Assembly: GCA_030428885.1 (NCBI GenBank)
Contig: JAUIEJ010000009.1
Coordinates: 186,001-250,000, forward strand
Source: Gemmatimonadota bacterium
Lineage (GTDB): Bacteria > Gemmatimonadota > Gemmatimonadetes > Longimicrobiales > Gaopeijiaceae
DNA: 64,000 bases
Direction: 5' to 3'
A program made the position numbers and the translations under genes. Below are positions 2,627 through 61,224 of this stretch, piece by piece. Every line of letters begins with the position of its first letter. The stretch's first letter is position 1. The notes beneath the pieces are model-generated. The model was given only the letters and a program-made list of their open reading frames with translations, did not search any database and was not told the DNA's origin.

Positions 2627-4414
2627 ATGCTCCCGCCGAAGCGACTCCCCCGGGCTCTGCGCCGGGCCTGGCTGCGCACCTTGGCCCGCCTCTCCGACCG
2701 CCCCCTCTCGGAGAACACGGTCCTCCTGGCCTTCGCCGTGGCCATCGGCCTGGCGGGCGCCCTGGGCGTCGCCCTCTTCTACGGCCTCATCGACCTGGCG
2801 TACCTGCTCCTCTTCGACACCTTCGGCGCTCGCGTGCCCACCTCGTTCGAGTGGGTGCGACGCCCCCTCGTCACCGGCGCCGGCCTGGCGGCGGCGTGGT
2901 GGGTGATGCGACGGCTGGCGCCGGGGGACGACGGGCTGAACGTCCCCGACGTCCAGGTGGCGGTGGCCCGCCGCGGGGGGGTGATCCCCGCCCGGCCGGC
3001 TCTGGCCCGAACCGCCGCCTCGGCCCTCACGGTGGGAGGAGGCGCCTCGGCGGGGTCGGAGGGACCGGTGGCGGTCCTGGGCGCCACCGTGGGGTCGGGA
3101 CTCGGGCGCCTGTTCCGGGTGGAGCCCGGCCGCATGCGCATCCTGGTGGGGGCCGGGGCCGCCGCGGGGATCTCGGCGGCCTTCAGTGCGCCCCTGGCCG
3201 GGGCCTTCTTCGCCCTGGAGCAGATCCTGGGCTCCCTGGCGGTCTCGGCCTTCCCCCCCGTGGTGGTGGCCAGCGTGGTGGCGGCGGTAGCCACCGAGGG
3301 CATCTTCGGCGCCAACCCCGCCTTCGCCGTGGTGGTGCAGCACGGCCCGCCGCTGGCCCGGGAAGTCCTCCTGCTCTACCCCCTCCTGGGCGTGCTCACC
3401 GGGGTGCTGGGCGCGCTCTTCATCAAGATGTACTACGCCGCCCTGGACGGCGGCGCACGGATCCCCGGGCCCGAGGCCCTTCGCCCCTGGCTGGGTGGGG
3501 CGCTGGTGGGGGTGGCCGCCACGGCCACCGGGGGGCTCCTGGTGGGCACCGGGCACCTGGCCATCCCCGAGTTCCTCTTCGGAGGCGCCGCCTGGTGGGT
3601 GCTCCTGGGTCTCGCCGTGGGCAAGATCGCCGTCACGGCTCTCACCTTCGGCGCCGGGGGCAGCGGAGGCGTCTTCACGCCGGCCCTCTACATCGGCGCC
3701 GCCGCCGGCGGGGCGTTCGGCGTGGGGGCCGCGTCCCTCTTCCCCGCCTCGGTGCCCCACCCCGAAGCCTACGCCCTGGTGGGCATGGGCGCCCTGGTGG
3801 TGGCCACGCTGGAGGCCCCCCTCACGGGGATCCTCCTGGTGTTCGAGATCACGGGGGACTACGCCATCGTCCTCCCCCTCATGCTCACGGCGGGGGTCGC
3901 CCACGTCGTGTCCCGGCGACTCCAATCGGCGTCCCTCTACGGCGTGTGGCTGGCCCGTCGCGGCGAGGATCTCACCGGCGGGCGCGACGCCTCCGTCCTG
4001 GCGTCCATGACGGTGGCCGACGCCTACGACCCCGATCCCCAGGTCATCGGCGAAGCCGCCACCGTCACCCAGCTCCTGGAGCACCTCCGCCCCGGCGCCC
4101 GGACCCACTTCCCCGTGGTGGACCGGGACCTCCGGCCGGTGGGCATGGTGGGCATCACCGAACTCGGCCGCCTGGCTCGGGACGAAGCCCATCTCGCCCC
4201 CATACTCCTGGCCGCCGACGTGGCCGACCCGGTGGAGCCGGTCCACCCCGACCACTCCCTCCTCGACGCCCTCCGTCGCATGGGGGCCCGAGGCATCTCG
4301 GCGCTTCCCGTCACCGACCCCACCACGGGCCGCCTCGCCGGGGTCCTGGACCGGGGGCTTCTCCTGGCCGCCTACGAGCGGGCGCTGGCCGGGGGCGCCG
4401 ACGGGAGTCCTTGA
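2627..4414 (+). CDS. ClC-family chloride channel/transporter with C-terminal CBS pair
   Basis: Inner-membrane anion channel or H+/Cl- exchanger of 595 residues. Signature motifs are present in order: GSEGP at 143-147, containing the gating glutamate E145; a helix with FALE ending in E198, the position of the internal proton glutamate of exchanger-type ClCs; and GSGGVFTP at 345-352. A tyrosine (Y438) sits at the usual chloride-coordinating region near the end of the membrane part. Presence of both glutamates suggests an H+-coupled exchanger; this is inference. Residues about 460-590 form two CBS domains, which in relatives bind adenine nucleotides and regulate transport. The stop codon overlaps the likely -35 box of the next gene, so padR1 probably has its own promoter. 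Confidence 0.93.
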   Translation: MLPPKRLPRALRRAWLRTLARLSDRPLSENTVLLAFAVAIGLAGALGVALFYGLIDLAYLLLFDTFGARVPTSFEWVRRPLVTGAGLAAAWWVMRRLAPGDDGLNVPDVQVAVARRGGVIPARPALARTAASALTVGGGASAGSEGPVAVLGATVGSGLGRLFRVEPGRMRILVGAGAAAGISAAFSAPLAGAFFALEQILGSLAVSAFPPVVVASVVAAVATEGIFGANPAFAVVVQHGPPLAREVLLLYPLLGVLTGVLGALFIKMYYAALDGGARIPGPEALRPWLGGALVGVAATATGGLLVGTGHLAIPEFLFGGAAWWVLLGLAVGKIAVTALTFGAGGSGGVFTPALYIGAAAGGAFGVGAASLFPASVPHPEAYALVGMGALVVATLEAPLTGILLVFEITGDYAIVLPLMLTAGVAHVVSRRLQSASLYGVWLARRGEDLTGGRDASVLASMTVADAYDPDPQVIGEAATVTQLLEHLRPGARTHFPVVDRDLRPVGMVGITELGRLARDEAHLAPILLAADVADPVEPVHPDHSLLDALRRMGARGISALPVTDPTTGRLAGVLDRGLLLAAYERALAGGADGSP

Positions 4415-55552: not shown

Positions 55553-56147
55553 CGCAGGCGTCTTCGCCGTCGACGGAGTGGTCGTGCGGGCCCCATCCGA
55601 TGCGATACGACGTTCGAACCGAATCGGCACCGGCACTTCCCACGGCGTCTTGGCGGAGGATGGCCCAGAACCCGGACTCGTCGTCCCAGTGCGCGACCGT
55701 CGCCTGCCCCGAGTCCCCCCCCGGGGCGAACCGAATCGCCCGCTGGTAGCAATACGTGGGCTCCACCACACCGGCGAAGAACTCCCCCCACGTCTCGATG
55801 AAGACCGTCTGCCCCTCGGCCTCCTCCCAGCCGAACTCGACCTCGATGTACTCGAGCGTGCCTCGCACCGGACAGTCGTCGAAGGGGCGCGCGTCCGACG
55901 CGCACGGGCGAGACACCATAAACGTCGTGGTGAAGGCGGCCGTGGAGTCCGAGTATCCCGCGTACGGGGCCACGGAGATGGACGGATACAATGCGTGGAG
56001 GTCCCTCGCGGCCATCCCCATGGCCACGCCGTCCATCTCCGAGACGGGGAGGACCTGGACGTGCTCCGCCACCGGAGGGCTCGAGGCCTTCGAGCAGCCC
56101 CCGGCGAGGGCGAGCATCAACATGGCGAGCGCAACGACCCTTCTCAT
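55521..56147 (-). CDS. Putative lipoprotein of unknown function
   Basis: Predicted lipoprotein of 208 residues (MRRVVALAMLMLALAGGC, Cys 18). The mature part has several cysteines (SRPCASDARPFDDCPVRG and YCYQR), possibly disulfide-bonded in the periplasm. No family recognised. The ATG overlaps the CPBP protease stop (ATGA), so it is the last gene of the five-gene overlapping chain 55521-58506. Confidence 0.75.
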   Translation of the reverse strand: MRRVVALAMLMLALAGGCSKASSPPVAEHVQVLPVSEMDGVAMGMAARDLHALYPSISVAPYAGYSDSTAAFTTTFMVSRPCASDARPFDDCPVRGTLEYIEVEFGWEEAEGQTVFIETWGEFFAGVVEPTYCYQRAIRFAPGGDSGQATVAHWDDESGFWAILRQDAVGSAGADSVRTSYRIGWGPHDHSVDGEDACATPRTPVPRP

Positions 56148-57001
56148 GGGCTGACGGAGGGGGGGCCGCGCCGACGATCCCGCCGGTACAGGAGCCTGAA
56201 GCCCAGAGTCATGAGGAAAAAGATCGAGAGGTAACTCGCGGCCCCCACCTGGGTGGTGCGCGCCGCCGAGTCGGGATCGACGATCATCTCCAGGAGGCCC
56301 GTTTCGGCCCTGTCTCCCACCGACCAACCCGCGAAGTTCCACGCCGCGTGGAGTCCGATGGGCACGGCGAGGCTCCGGGTCGCGAGGGCACTCATGCCCC
56401 AGAGCAGTCCGCCGGGCACCACGCCGAGGGCGATGGTGCTCAGATCCCACCCGTACGACAGGTGGCTCAACCCGAAGGCCACGGCCGTCACAGCGACCGC
56501 GGGCCCCGCACCGACGATCGCCGTGAGCCGCCGGAGCGGATATCCGCGAAAGCCGACCTCCTCCATGCAGGAGGTGCCGACGAAGCGAGCGAAGTAGACG
56601 AGAGCGATCAGGACGCCCGTCTCGGGAACCCACTCGAATCGCAAGGGGCCCGCGAACGTCCCGACGATCCACACATGGACTGCATAGGACACCGCGCCGA
56701 TCAGGAGTCCCACTCCGAACTTGGCGAGGCTCGAGGCCGGCGCCACCACCGACGCGGAGGAGGCGGGACCTCCATCGACTCGCCGGAGGACCCGGGGAAG
56801 TGCGAGCAGCAGGAGACTGCTCCCGAACCCCCACGCGATCAACCGCCACAACTCCGTGGGAACGAAGAGAGACGTGACGAACCCCACACCCAGGGTGACC
56901 GCGAGGTACCCGACCCAGAAGAGGCCCACGGAGAGGATCACCCTCCCCGGGGCCTCGCCCCTTGGCTCCCCGTCCTCCGTGCCCGCGTGATCCGCACTCA
57001 T
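56144..57001 (-). CDS. CPBP-family intramembrane metalloprotease (CAAX-protease-like)
   Basis: Membrane protein of 285 residues with about eight helices. The CPBP motifs are in order: CMEEVGFRGYPL (EExxxR), FGLSHLSYG (FxxxH), and HAAWNFAGW (HxxxN). All catalytic residues are present. Bacterial members are often linked to peptide maturation or self-immunity to bacteriocins, but most are uncharacterised. Coupled by ATGA overlaps to the kinase upstream and to the lipoprotein downstream. Confidence 0.9.
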   Translation of the reverse strand: MSADHAGTEDGEPRGEAPGRVILSVGLFWVGYLAVTLGVGFVTSLFVPTELWRLIAWGFGSSLLLLALPRVLRRVDGGPASSASVVAPASSLAKFGVGLLIGAVSYAVHVWIVGTFAGPLRFEWVPETGVLIALVYFARFVGTSCMEEVGFRGYPLRRLTAIVGAGPAVAVTAVAFGLSHLSYGWDLSTIALGVVPGGLLWGMSALATRSLAVPIGLHAAWNFAGWSVGDRAETGLLEMIVDPDSAARTTQVGAASYLSIFFLMTLGFRLLYRRDRRRGPPSVSP

Positions 57002-57600
57002 TCCCGGCGGTCGTCCTTTCGCAGCGGAAGCCCCCGGCGAGCCACGATCTCGTCCGCGACGTCGGAGGCCTCCCGGTTCGTATTGTCGATCCGGAGGTGG
57101 TGCTCCGGGTAGAAGAAGTCGCCGTCGGTATTCAGCCGGTATCGTCGATCGTTCTCGAGGACCCGGCGCTCCGACGCGTCCACATCGCGCTTGGAAGGTT
57201 TCTCGGCGAGGCGGAGTTCCGTGCGGTTGCGACGGAGACGCTCGTCCAGCGAAGCGAACAACTCTACGAAGTGCACCCTGGCATTCTTCGCCGCGAACCG
57301 CGCCATCAGCCCATCGATGAAGCGCCGGTCCCCCGCTTCGTCCAGGGCCCACACGTAGGTGAAGATCAGCCCCGGCCCGTCGCCGCGAACCACTTCGTCG
57401 AACACCTGGTCCCGAAACGACGAGACCAGCCGATTGAACGGCGGAGAGCCGAACGGAAAGAGCTTCAACGCCGGCTCGATGGACATGTGATTGTGGAACA
57501 GCAGCAGACCCGTGCGGTCGGCGAGCTCCAGTCCCACGGTCATCTTCCCCACGGCCGGAGGGCCGAAGAGCACCACCAGGTGCGGTTCTACGCCTCCCAC
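56998..57600 (-). CDS. Zeta-toxin-like P-loop kinase, copy 2
   Basis: P-loop protein of 200 residues. Walker A is GPPAVGKMT at 11-19, then LLFHNHMSIEP, the same FHNH motif as copy 1. FIDGLMARFAAKNARVHFVEL and the DERLRRNRTELRL region form the lid. The C-terminus HHLRIDNTNREASDVADEI is typical of nucleotide-kinase-like proteins. The start is GTG 57600, within the last codons of the GNAT gene. Substrate unknown; no antitoxin is adjacent. Confidence 0.75.
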   Translation of the reverse strand: MGGVEPHLVVLFGPPAVGKMTVGLELADRTGLLLFHNHMSIEPALKLFPFGSPPFNRLVSSFRDQVFDEVVRGDGPGLIFTYVWALDEAGDRRFIDGLMARFAAKNARVHFVELFASLDERLRRNRTELRLAEKPSKRDVDASERRVLENDRRYRLNTDGDFFYPEHHLRIDNTNREASDVADEIVARRGLPLRKDDRRE

Positions 57601-58142
57601 TCTCGCCTCAGGATCGAGAATCGGGCCTCGTCGAACACCTCGCCCCGCTCGACCCGGCTCGAACGCAGCACGCCCTCCTTCACCATGCCGATCTTCTCCA
57701 TGACGCGCTGGGAACCGAGGTTGTCGACGTCGGCCCGGGCGTGCACCCGGATCAGGTCGGGTCGGGCGCCGAACGCCGCATCGATCACCGCCCGGGCCGC
57801 CTCCGTGCACAGTCCACGCTTCCAGTGGGTGCGCGCCACCGAGTACCCGAGCTCCGCCGATCGTTGGGCGACGTCGATCCGCAGGTTCACACCCCCGACC
57901 ACGACCCCCTCCAGGGTCATGGCCCAGGACGGGTGGGTCGCTCGATCCCGAAGCACCTGTTGAGCGATGAACTGCTTCGCGTGCTCCCGCTCGTACGGTC
58001 GGGGAAGGATTCTCAAGAACCGGGACCACTCCGAGTCCCGCGCATAGGCGAAGACGTCATCCACGTCGTCGAACCGGAACGGCCGCAGGATCAGACGCTC
58101 CGTCGTGATGACCTCCGGCAGGACCGCGTCATTCAACGCCAT
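57588..58142 (-). CDS. GNAT-family N-acetyltransferase (RimJ/RimL-like)
   Basis: Acetyltransferase of 184 residues. [20 protein letters not shown] opens the domain, [24 protein letters not shown] is the CoA-binding region (the usual G-x-G/A is replaced by W-K-R-G-L), and [18 protein letters not shown] closes it. The start at ATG 58142 overlaps the end of the DUF2200 gene by 14 bp, and its stop overlaps the kinase start. Confidence 0.9.
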
Positions 58143-58506
58143 CGCCCCGCAGGATCTTCTCCATCTTTCGCCCCTTCGCCAGTTCATCGACCAGCTTGTC
58201 GAGGTACCGCGTCTTCCGGGTGAGGGGCGTCTCGATGTCTTCGATGCGGTAGCCGCAGATGACGCCCCGAATCAGATGGGCGTTGTCGTGGATCGTCGCC
58301 TCCGCGAAGAACTCCTGGAAGGTCGTCGTCCCGTCGATGTGGGCCTGGAGCTGTTCGCCGGTGAACCCCGTGAGCCACCGGATGACCTCGTGGAGCTCCT
58401 CCCTGGTACGCCCCTTCTTCTCGACCTTGTTCACGTAGTGCGGATACACCGATGAGAAACGCATCTCGGCGATGCGCTTGTCGTGCTCGGGCGTCGTGGT
58501 CGGCAT
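58129..58506 (-). CDS. DUF2200 family protein
   Basis: Small cytoplasmic protein of 125 residues that fits DUF2200 throughout: [32 protein letters not shown], and [26 protein letters not shown]. The first part matches very closely. Function unknown. First gene of the overlapping chain that continues to 55521. Confidence 0.9.
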
Positions 58507-58616: not shown

Positions 58617-59312
58617 CTACTTCAGGCTCCAGAACGGGCCCGCGAGCCCCACGTCGGCGAAGATGGCCTCCATCCGTTCCACGGTGGGGCGTCGCCACTC
58701 CAGAGCCTCCCGCCCGCGATACCAGAGGCGCGCCAGGTGCCAGCACTGGGCCATGGTCAGGACGGCCCCCGGTCCGACGTCACGGGATGCGCACCAGCGC
58801 TGGGCATGCTCTTCCGACCGGAAGACGAGAATCGTCGCTCAGGTGAATCCGACGTTCTCCCAGAACCGTTTCGGCGGGACCAGGAAGTGGACCACCGCAT
58901 GGGACTCGACATGGCCCTGGCGCACGCCGAAGACGAGGGAATCCCCGCAGTCGGCACACTGGGTGTGGACCTCGGCGTCGACACCCAGCAAAGCCGAAAC
59001 ACCCAGGGCGTCCCAGGCGCAGTTCGCCCAGTACGTGCGTTGCGCCGTCGTCACCGGGTACGCCGTGGGCACCGCCGAAAACGGAAAGGCCATCCACACG
59101 TTCCGCGTGCCCGGAGCCAGGGCGATGGCATGGGCTGCGGCCAGCCGATCGATGGACCGGGCGACGGCGTCGAGGGGCAGATCCAGGGCCGAGGCCAGGC
59201 CGGCGGCCGTGGGCGCGCGGGCCGTCTCCATGAACGACTGGTAGATCCCGTGACGGACCCGTCGGTCGATCTCGTCCTCGTGGCCCGGAAGAGGCTCGCG
59301 GTGCATCGCCAC
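58617..59312 (-). CDS. Alkylmercury-lyase (MerB)-like protein with in-frame TGA, probable selenoprotein
   Basis: Protein of 231 residues if the TGA at 58839-58841 is read as selenocysteine (Sec158). N-terminal winged-helix part, then YWANCAWDALG with C98 and D101, matching MerB C96 and D99; VHTQC119 matches MerB C117. The sequence ENVGFT-U-ATILVF then places Sec158 in the region of MerB C159/C160. After the TGA the same frame continues with FRSEEHAQRWC and ends VGLAGPFWSLK before TAG at 58617, which is the typical C-terminus of MerB-like proteins in my recollection. A hairpin with a GGUC loop lies 19 nt past the TGA. MerB cleaves carbon-mercury bonds; the substrate here is inferred. Start GTG 59312 follows AGGGAG. 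A C-to-stop nonsense mutation cannot be excluded. Confidence 0.75.
58810..58825 (-). promoter_or_regulatory. Candidate bacterial SECIS hairpin
   Basis: On the coding strand TCTTCC-GGTC-GGAAGA forms a 6-bp perfect stem with a GGUC tetraloop. A seventh pair is possible past one bulged G. Nineteen bases separate the UGA from the loop; in E. coli fdhF the loop GGUC lies 18 bases after UGA, recalled from the published element. It lies inside the coding frame, as bacterial SECIS elements do. Binding by SelB is inferred. Confidence 0.6.
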
Positions 59313-59330
59313 TACGTACTCCCTACGCCG

Positions 59331-60034: not shown

Positions 60035-60724
60035 CTACTCCAGTCTCGGAGCATCGGCCACTCCCTTCCCGATCAACCACCCAGCCAGCACCATCTCCTG
60101 CACCGCAATCGGCACCGTCAGCAGTACCTCGAACAGCACGGGGGGAACGTCTGGCGTGAGGGCCAGGAGGTCGAGCCCCCCACCCACCAGGAGAAGGGCC
60201 GCTCCGAACACACCCCAGATCGCGATGGCGGGAGGGACGAGTCGGCTCTTCCAGAGCACGGAATTCAGCAGCAGAGAACCCAGGGGGAACGCAACGACGA
60301 CCGAAATCAGAAAGGCGGACTCGTTCACCGCCTGGAGCGTGCCCAACTGCGTCGCCAGTGCGCCCGTCGACGCCGTCCCGGCGTGGAACGCCTCGCTGAG
60401 GGAGACCATGGCCAGCAGATTGCCGTCCACCACGACCAGGGCCGCGGCCTCCATGATCCGCAGTCCCACGTACGAGAGGGCCGCCGTTTCGGACGCTCGT
60501 CGCAGGATCGGGTAGAAGACCAGGGCGATGAGGGGAATCGCGAACACGCCGATCAACTCGATCAGCACCCCGACCATCACCATACTTCGATTCGGGAAGG
60601 CGACCTCGAGAACGTCGTCCGAATTCAGGAAAGGGCCGTGGAGTGCCTGCCCGGCCATGAAGAAGCCGGTGGCGACGATGAACAGCGCGCCCACAACCGC
60701 GGCGGTCCGGCGCTGGCCCGTCAT
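60035..60724 (-). CDS. DUF4386 family membrane protein
   Basis: Integral membrane protein of 229 residues with about six helices. TAAVVGALFIVATGFFMAG opens it, and VLIELIGVFAIPLIALVFYPILRR, then LGSLLLNSVLWKSRLVPPAIAIWG, are typical of DUF4386. Function unknown. It follows a lipoprotein gene on the same strand by 35 bp. Confidence 0.85.
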   Translation of the reverse strand: MTGQRRTAAVVGALFIVATGFFMAGQALHGPFLNSDDVLEVAFPNRSMVMVGVLIELIGVFAIPLIALVFYPILRRASETAALSYVGLRIMEAAALVVVDGNLLAMVSLSEAFHAGTASTGALATQLGTLQAVNESAFLISVVVAFPLGSLLLNSVLWKSRLVPPAIAIWGVFGAALLLVGGGLDLLALTPDVPPVLFEVLLTVPIAVQEMVLAGWLIGKGVADAPRLE

Positions 60725-60759
60725 GATGCCATCCTCTCCGTATGAACTCCCATCCCTCG

Positions 60760-61224
60760 TCAGCAGAGGGCTCCGCGGCGGAGGCTGTTGCGGACCACGA
60801 AGACGGAGTCCGACTGAATAACGCCCAAAACGCTCACCTCCCCCACGCACATTCCCTCGGGGCGTGACCCGCCGACGATCACGTCGATCCAGTAGTCGGT
60901 GCCTCGAGCGAACCACACGGCGTACCCGGCCTCGAACCGAAGAGACCGGTCCAGTTCGCGAAGCACCGTGACGACGGGGTGCGTTCCCTCGGCCAACTCG
61001 ATCCGACGTTCGCCGGGCTGAGAGAGGAGCACTGAGACCTCACCCACGAAGACCCGGAGTTGGAGCGCGTCGGTTGGGGGGGCCTGGAACCGAATGGTCA
61101 ACGCCGGATCACCCGGACCGGTCGAATCGGAGCAGCCCACAGCCAGCGAGAGGAGTGCCACGAGTCCCAAGGCGGTGCGCCTTCGAATCGACGCTCCCCG
61201 ACGAGCCCTTCCCCTGTGCGCCAT
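60760..61224 (-). CDS. Putative small lipoprotein
   Basis: Predicted lipoprotein of 154 residues: basic start (RGRARRGASIRRR), hydrophobic TALGLVALLSLAVGC with a lipobox, then SDSTGPGDPALTIRF. The short beta-rich domain resembles lipoproteins with the SDSTGP linker found in Gemmatimonadota-like genomes. A C-terminal Cys pair (MCVGEV ... GALC) may form a disulfide. Function unknown. Start ATG 61224. Confidence 0.72.
   Translation of the reverse strand: MAHRGRARRGASIRRRTALGLVALLSLAVGCSDSTGPGDPALTIRFQAPPTDALQLRVFVGEVSVLLSQPGERRIELAEGTHPVVTVLRELDRSLRFEAGYAVWFARGTDYWIDVIVGGSRPEGMCVGEVSVLGVIQSDSVFVVRNSLRRGALC

Follow-up and report, generated by a model that had tools for sequence, protein, structure and literature searches.

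The organomercurial lyase MerB holds the metal of its substrate with Cys96, Asp99, and Cys159, and Asp99 also acts in proton transfer (PMC4525700, PMC8261052). A related protein, SaoL (NCBIfam NF040728, pfam MerB), has been catalogued as a MerB-like organometallic lyase selenoprotein (PMC9312934, PMC13188914), so the idea of a selenocysteine (Sec)-containing MerB relative is not new. The original prediction for the gene studied here knew of no described selenoprotein of this family, and in that respect it overlooked SaoL. We analyzed the gene in a window of 64,000 nucleotides, the whole stretch of DNA under study. It represents a real Sec subfamily of MerB, distinct from SaoL and apparently undescribed in the open-access journal literature. 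The subfamily is absent from a 2026 inventory of 119 families, in which SaoL is the only MerB family, and deep-Sep (PMC12013277) makes no mention of MerB or mercury.

On re-reading the sequence, we found 157 codons from a GTG start, a single TGA, and a further 73 codons up to a TAG, as first described for this lyase-like frame, including its end in GLAGPFWSLK (Table 1). When the TGA was counted as one residue, the translation matched Pfam MerB (PF03243) with 104.4 bits (gathering cut-off 27, E=5.5e-30); the match covers residues 78-198 of the 231-residue protein and thus spans the TGA. The NCBIfam MerB models gave 42.5 and 34.8 bits, far under their cut-offs of 193 and 200. An alignment with MerB C160S (3f2g), in which positions were counted by hand in the printed alignment, pairs Cys98 with Cys96, Asp101 with Asp99, Cys119 with Cys117, and codon 158 with Cys159. 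The proposed fit of Cys98 and Asp101 to the MerB residues is borne out, and the TGA, which had been placed at the second catalytic-region cysteine, falls exactly on Cys159.

Table 1 Features of the Sec-MerB locus (positions in the window).
Feature	Position	Strand	Remarks
Sec-MerB gene	58617..59312	minus	GTG start 59310-59312, in-frame TGA, TAG stop 58617-58619; 231 residues, predicted Sec at 158
Shine-Dalgarno-like AGGGAG	59319..59324	minus	6 nt upstream of the GTG start; read from sequence
Cys98 codon	59019..59021	minus	MerB Cys96 position; invariant
Asp101 codon	59010..59012	minus	MerB Asp99 position; Asp throughout the Sec forms, replaced by Cys in the Cys-Cys-Cys clade
TGA codon 158, predicted to be read as Sec	58839..58841	minus	MerB Cys159 position (alignment to 3f2g and MerB2 5c17)
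Predicted bacterial SECIS hairpin CUUCC-GGUC-GGAAG	58811..58824	minus	Apical GGUC 58816-58819; 14-27 nt after the UGA

The protein shares with MerB (PF03243; 1S6L, 3F0O, 3F2G) the fold, the Pfam family, the counterparts of Cys96 and Asp99, and the position of the second catalytic cysteine. It differs in having predicted Sec in place of Cys159 and no counterpart of Cys160, in its identity of about 20% to the solved MerB structures, and in its location outside any mer operon. MerB2 (5C17) was the best PDB match in both sequence and fold. Counterparts of Cys96 and Cys159 are common to both proteins, but MerB2 has Ser at the Asp99 position, where the present protein has Asp, and Cys159 where Sec is predicted here.

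We rejected membership in SaoL: the protein scored 48.7 bits with the SaoL model against a cut-off of 140, and the best E value among 35 members was 5.5e-14. Both families are MerB-related and Sec-containing, and SaoL is the only such family in two inventories (PMC9312934, PMC13188914). The catalogued SaoL motif is CU (PMC13188914), whereas the present family has Thr or Ala before the Sec; the SaoL model has 159 positions, compared with 231 residues here; and SaoL has neighbors of the Sec-assisted organometallic (SAO) operon, none of which surround the present gene in the window. We regard the two as separate because of the low score, the lack of a CU motif, and the lack of SAO neighbors, a distinction drawn by model score, catalogued motif, length, and neighbors. 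No protein in 400 Chloroflexota genomes exceeded the cut-off of the SaoL model.

The genome of the host (5.39 Mb, 95% complete) was found to contain the whole set of Sec genes to which the original prediction had been tied: selA (519 bits), selB (317 bits, above cut-off), selD (355 bits), and tRNA-Sec (74.5 bits), the last called by ARAGORN as tRNA-SeC with anticodon tca (UCA). The host selD has an in-frame TGA of its own with a GGUU-loop hairpin downstream of it, and so serves as an internal positive control.

We then compared relatives of the gene. A homologue was present in 40 of the 121 genomes of the host's GTDB family, with the TGA in 38 of them, and a scan of genome contigs uncovered further members in Acidobacteriota, Thermomicrobiota, and Chloroflexota. 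Across Gemmatimonadota, 73 of 395 genomes had a homologue, a count that takes in Cys-type and more distant MerB relatives; a published survey reports one Gemmatimonadetes genome with MerB (PMC8261052). After removal of sequences more than 90% alike, the active sites comprised 71 of the type Cys98-Asp101-Sec158 (CDU) and nine of the type Cys-Cys-Cys (CCC); a further eight, in more remote MerB-like proteins, were Cys-Asp-Cys, and closer Cys-Asp-Cys relatives were found in Chloroflexota (L160, L161, and L167). The TGA was aligned to residue 158 in every inspected Sec-type locus that reaches this position, and Cys98 and Asp101 were kept in all Sec-type sequences covering those positions. That TGA stands at one aligned codon in 71 distinct homologues from Gemmatimonadota, Acidobacteriota, Chloroflexota, and Thermomicrobiota (<90% identity) is far beyond chance. 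At this codon, relatives thus carry either TGA or a Cys codon; together with the Sec machinery, this backs the earlier suggestion that the TGA probably encodes a catalytic Sec.

Could the TGA be a misread TGC or TGT? Most of the genomes compared are metagenome-assembled, but the TGA occurs in assemblies from many projects, including the single-contig chromosomes CP126532.1 and OX638356.1, and we consider the chance of a sequencing or assembly error negligible. Reassignment of the genetic code was ruled out, since 29 of 48 of these genes themselves end in TGA, which thus works as a regular stop in their genomes.

The sequence beyond the TGA was found to evolve as coding sequence. With the hairpin left out, the median dN/dS in about 75 related pairs was 0.28 after the TGA, compared with 0.22 before it, and seven of the 14 invariant alignment columns lie after codon 158 (one, the Sec column itself, is counted separately). 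Judged from these comparisons, purifying selection is continued past the TGA.

The presence of the Sec form was also linked to selA. In the host family, selA was detected in 37 of 38 Sec-type genomes and in 53 of 81 genomes without the gene (p=6e-5), and among all first-round genomes in 72 of 75 Sec-type and 5 of 12 CCC-type genomes (p=1.4e-5; both tests ignore relatedness). The Chloroflexota follow-up gave 10 of 10 Sec-type genomes and none of three with Cys-Asp-Cys. Overall, selA was scored in 82 of 85 Sec-type genomes (G388 and G403 on fragments below the cut-off only) and in 5 of 15 Cys-type genomes, leaving 10 of 15 without it. The three Sec-type genomes with no selA over the cut-off are G098, G420, and that of locus L056, perhaps due to incompleteness. 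In L056, from a Terriglobia metagenome-assembled genome, the Sec-type frame extends 240 codons beyond the TGA, perhaps owing to a frameshift or to genome incompleteness.

A hairpin, CUUCC-GGUC-GGAAG, was found 14-27 nt past the UGA across 48 Sec-type sequences and is a predicted SECIS; its loop and spacing presumably resemble those of the E. coli fdhF SECIS. The five pairs are intact in 44-48 of the 48, mostly through invariance, with a few G-U changes. Since the pairs hardly vary, compensatory change offers no evidence for a SECIS, and the evidence comes instead from codon choice. Arg is CGG in 46 of 48 sequences (background 0.32), Ser is TCG in 45 of 45 (0.35), Glu is GAA in 38 of 47 (0.33), and Phe is TTC in 48 of 48 (0.77); the p-values for this bias ignore relatedness. 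Among further loci recognized by the pattern, and counted separately from the 48, the GGTC loop was present in 26 of 27; the pattern does not pick up L139, L140, and L155, of which two are Sec loci and one is broken. The motif was absent from the Cys-type relatives. By folding energy, the hairpin did not exceed shuffled controls in stability (z +0.5 to +1), and a search of the whole window with Rfam returned nothing at the gathering threshold.

An AlphaFold2 model, built from 35 sequences with Cys substituted for Sec, reached a pLDDT of 94.8 and a pTM of 0.90. All 11 Foldseek matches in the PDB at E<0.001 were MerB or MerB2, and the part after the Sec forms an integral piece of the modelled domain. 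The model suggests that the readthrough protein adopts a complete MerB fold. The N-terminal part is winged-helix-like, with weak fold matches to regulators.

These results bear on whether the UGA is an ordinary stop that leaves a 157-residue MerB fragment or a pseudogene. Such a reading could draw on the three Sec-type genomes lacking selA over the cut-off and on a decayed copy in the close relative G044, but it does not account for the identical TGA codon in 71 distinct sequences, the selection and invariant residues past the TGA, the frozen codons in the hairpin, the linkage to selA, or the need of the fold for the part after the TGA. We regard an ordinary stop as highly improbable, and Sec is almost certainly inserted at residue 158, as judged from sequence comparison. 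The copy in G044 (L130; same genus, single-contig) carries a further TGA, its tail is short, and it is probably decaying.

The proposed mechanism follows that of MerB. Directed by the hairpin immediately downstream, SelB and tRNA-Sec would decode the in-frame UGA and place Sec at residue 158. The Sec158 selenolate would, by position, stand in for the Cys159 thiolate and, together with Cys98, bind an alkyl-mercury compound through its metal. With proton transfer from Asp101 to the alkyl group, the bond between carbon and metal would break, and thiols or another protein would take over the metal ion. At neutral pH a selenol is ionized, and its affinity for mercury exceeds that of a thiol. Sec would thus be a stronger, already ionized ligand for a soft metal than Cys and would speed metal capture, and release of the metal from Sec may require a partner that supplies a thiol or selenol. 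On balance, the protein is probably a Sec-dependent member of the MerB fold that acts as an organomercury lyase.

We examined the genomic context for clues to the substrate. The neighbors in the window (56144-58506 and 60035-60916) are ordinary: DUF2200, a GNAT acetyltransferase, an Rce1-like protease, and DUF4386. No mer operon, mercury, or SAO genes were found beside the gene (for SAO, among the ten neighboring ORFs of the window). A conserved operon partner was sought as a substrate clue and none was found; neighbors recur within genera only, not between them. The host has a true MerA elsewhere in its genome (548 bits, C20:258701-260086), and carriers of the gene were not enriched for MerA (p=0.73).

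The missing MerA association and the lack of mer neighbors are consistent with a Sec-dependent MerB-fold lyase that acts not on organomercury but on another organometal or organometalloid, such as tin, lead, arsenic, or selenium alkyls, as is the assignment of the related SaoL to an SAO system without a settled substrate (PMC13188914). We consider this unlikely: the triad is exactly that of MerB with Se for S, the closest matches among solved structures belong to mercury enzymes, and the context points to no alternative. A different function altogether, as a Sec/Cys metal-binding carrier, sensor, or redox protein on the MerB fold, would agree with the winged-helix-like N-terminal part, the lack of a conserved operon, and a clade in which Asp is swapped for Cys along with Sec for Cys, removing the presumed proton donor. 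However, Asp101 and Cys98 are kept in all Sec forms covering the site, and a mere binder would not need Asp101, which makes such a role quite improbable.

That clade, with Cys at both the Asp99 and Cys159 positions, comprises loci L112-L119, L040, and L111 and the plasmid-borne L153 and L154; the form is present on plasmids of Sphingomonas panacis and Paraburkholderia. In the tree, the CCC sequences form one clade (support 100/99) that groups with CDU sequences, so the simplest history is a single change from Sec to Cys paired with a change of Asp101 to Cys. We infer the direction Sec to Cys, the tree root being set for drawing only. Such a double replacement points to a different chemistry, and the loss of Asp in this sister clade implies that the MerB-like fold is not tied to one chemistry.

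If the preferred reading as an organomercury lyase is correct, Cys-Asp-Sec lyases could be widespread in bacteria without mer operons and constitute a hidden, undescribed reservoir of organomercury demethylation, with a derived clade that turned to Cys-Cys-Cys on giving up Sec. We put the chance of this larger picture a little short of even. Surveys would miss such lyases, since gene callers take the UGA for a stop and curation demands Cys159; this residue is a screening criterion in published merB surveys (PMC8261052, PMC12874090), in which the present group would be discarded or cut short. If the enzymes are active, a widespread organometal-degrading enzyme has been overlooked, and if they act on mercury, the potential for methylmercury demethylation is currently underestimated. 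The predicted Sec occupies the very catalytic position that binds mercury in an enzyme of solved structure, and one family naturally offers Sec, Cys (C-D-C), and Cys-Cys-Cys variants with which the role of Se-Hg affinity in catalysis becomes testable.

Other loci were also noted. Plasmid 1 of Rubrobacter radiotolerans RSPS-4, a cultured actinobacterium, carries a Cys-Asp-TGA relative (L155, about 2935-3404) that is frame-broken and annotated as a 90-residue merB. Two MerA-like flavoprotein reductases below the MerA cut-off (G088:C26:57853-59205 and G056:C11:3286-4638) have one in-frame TGA each and are possible further selenoproteins.
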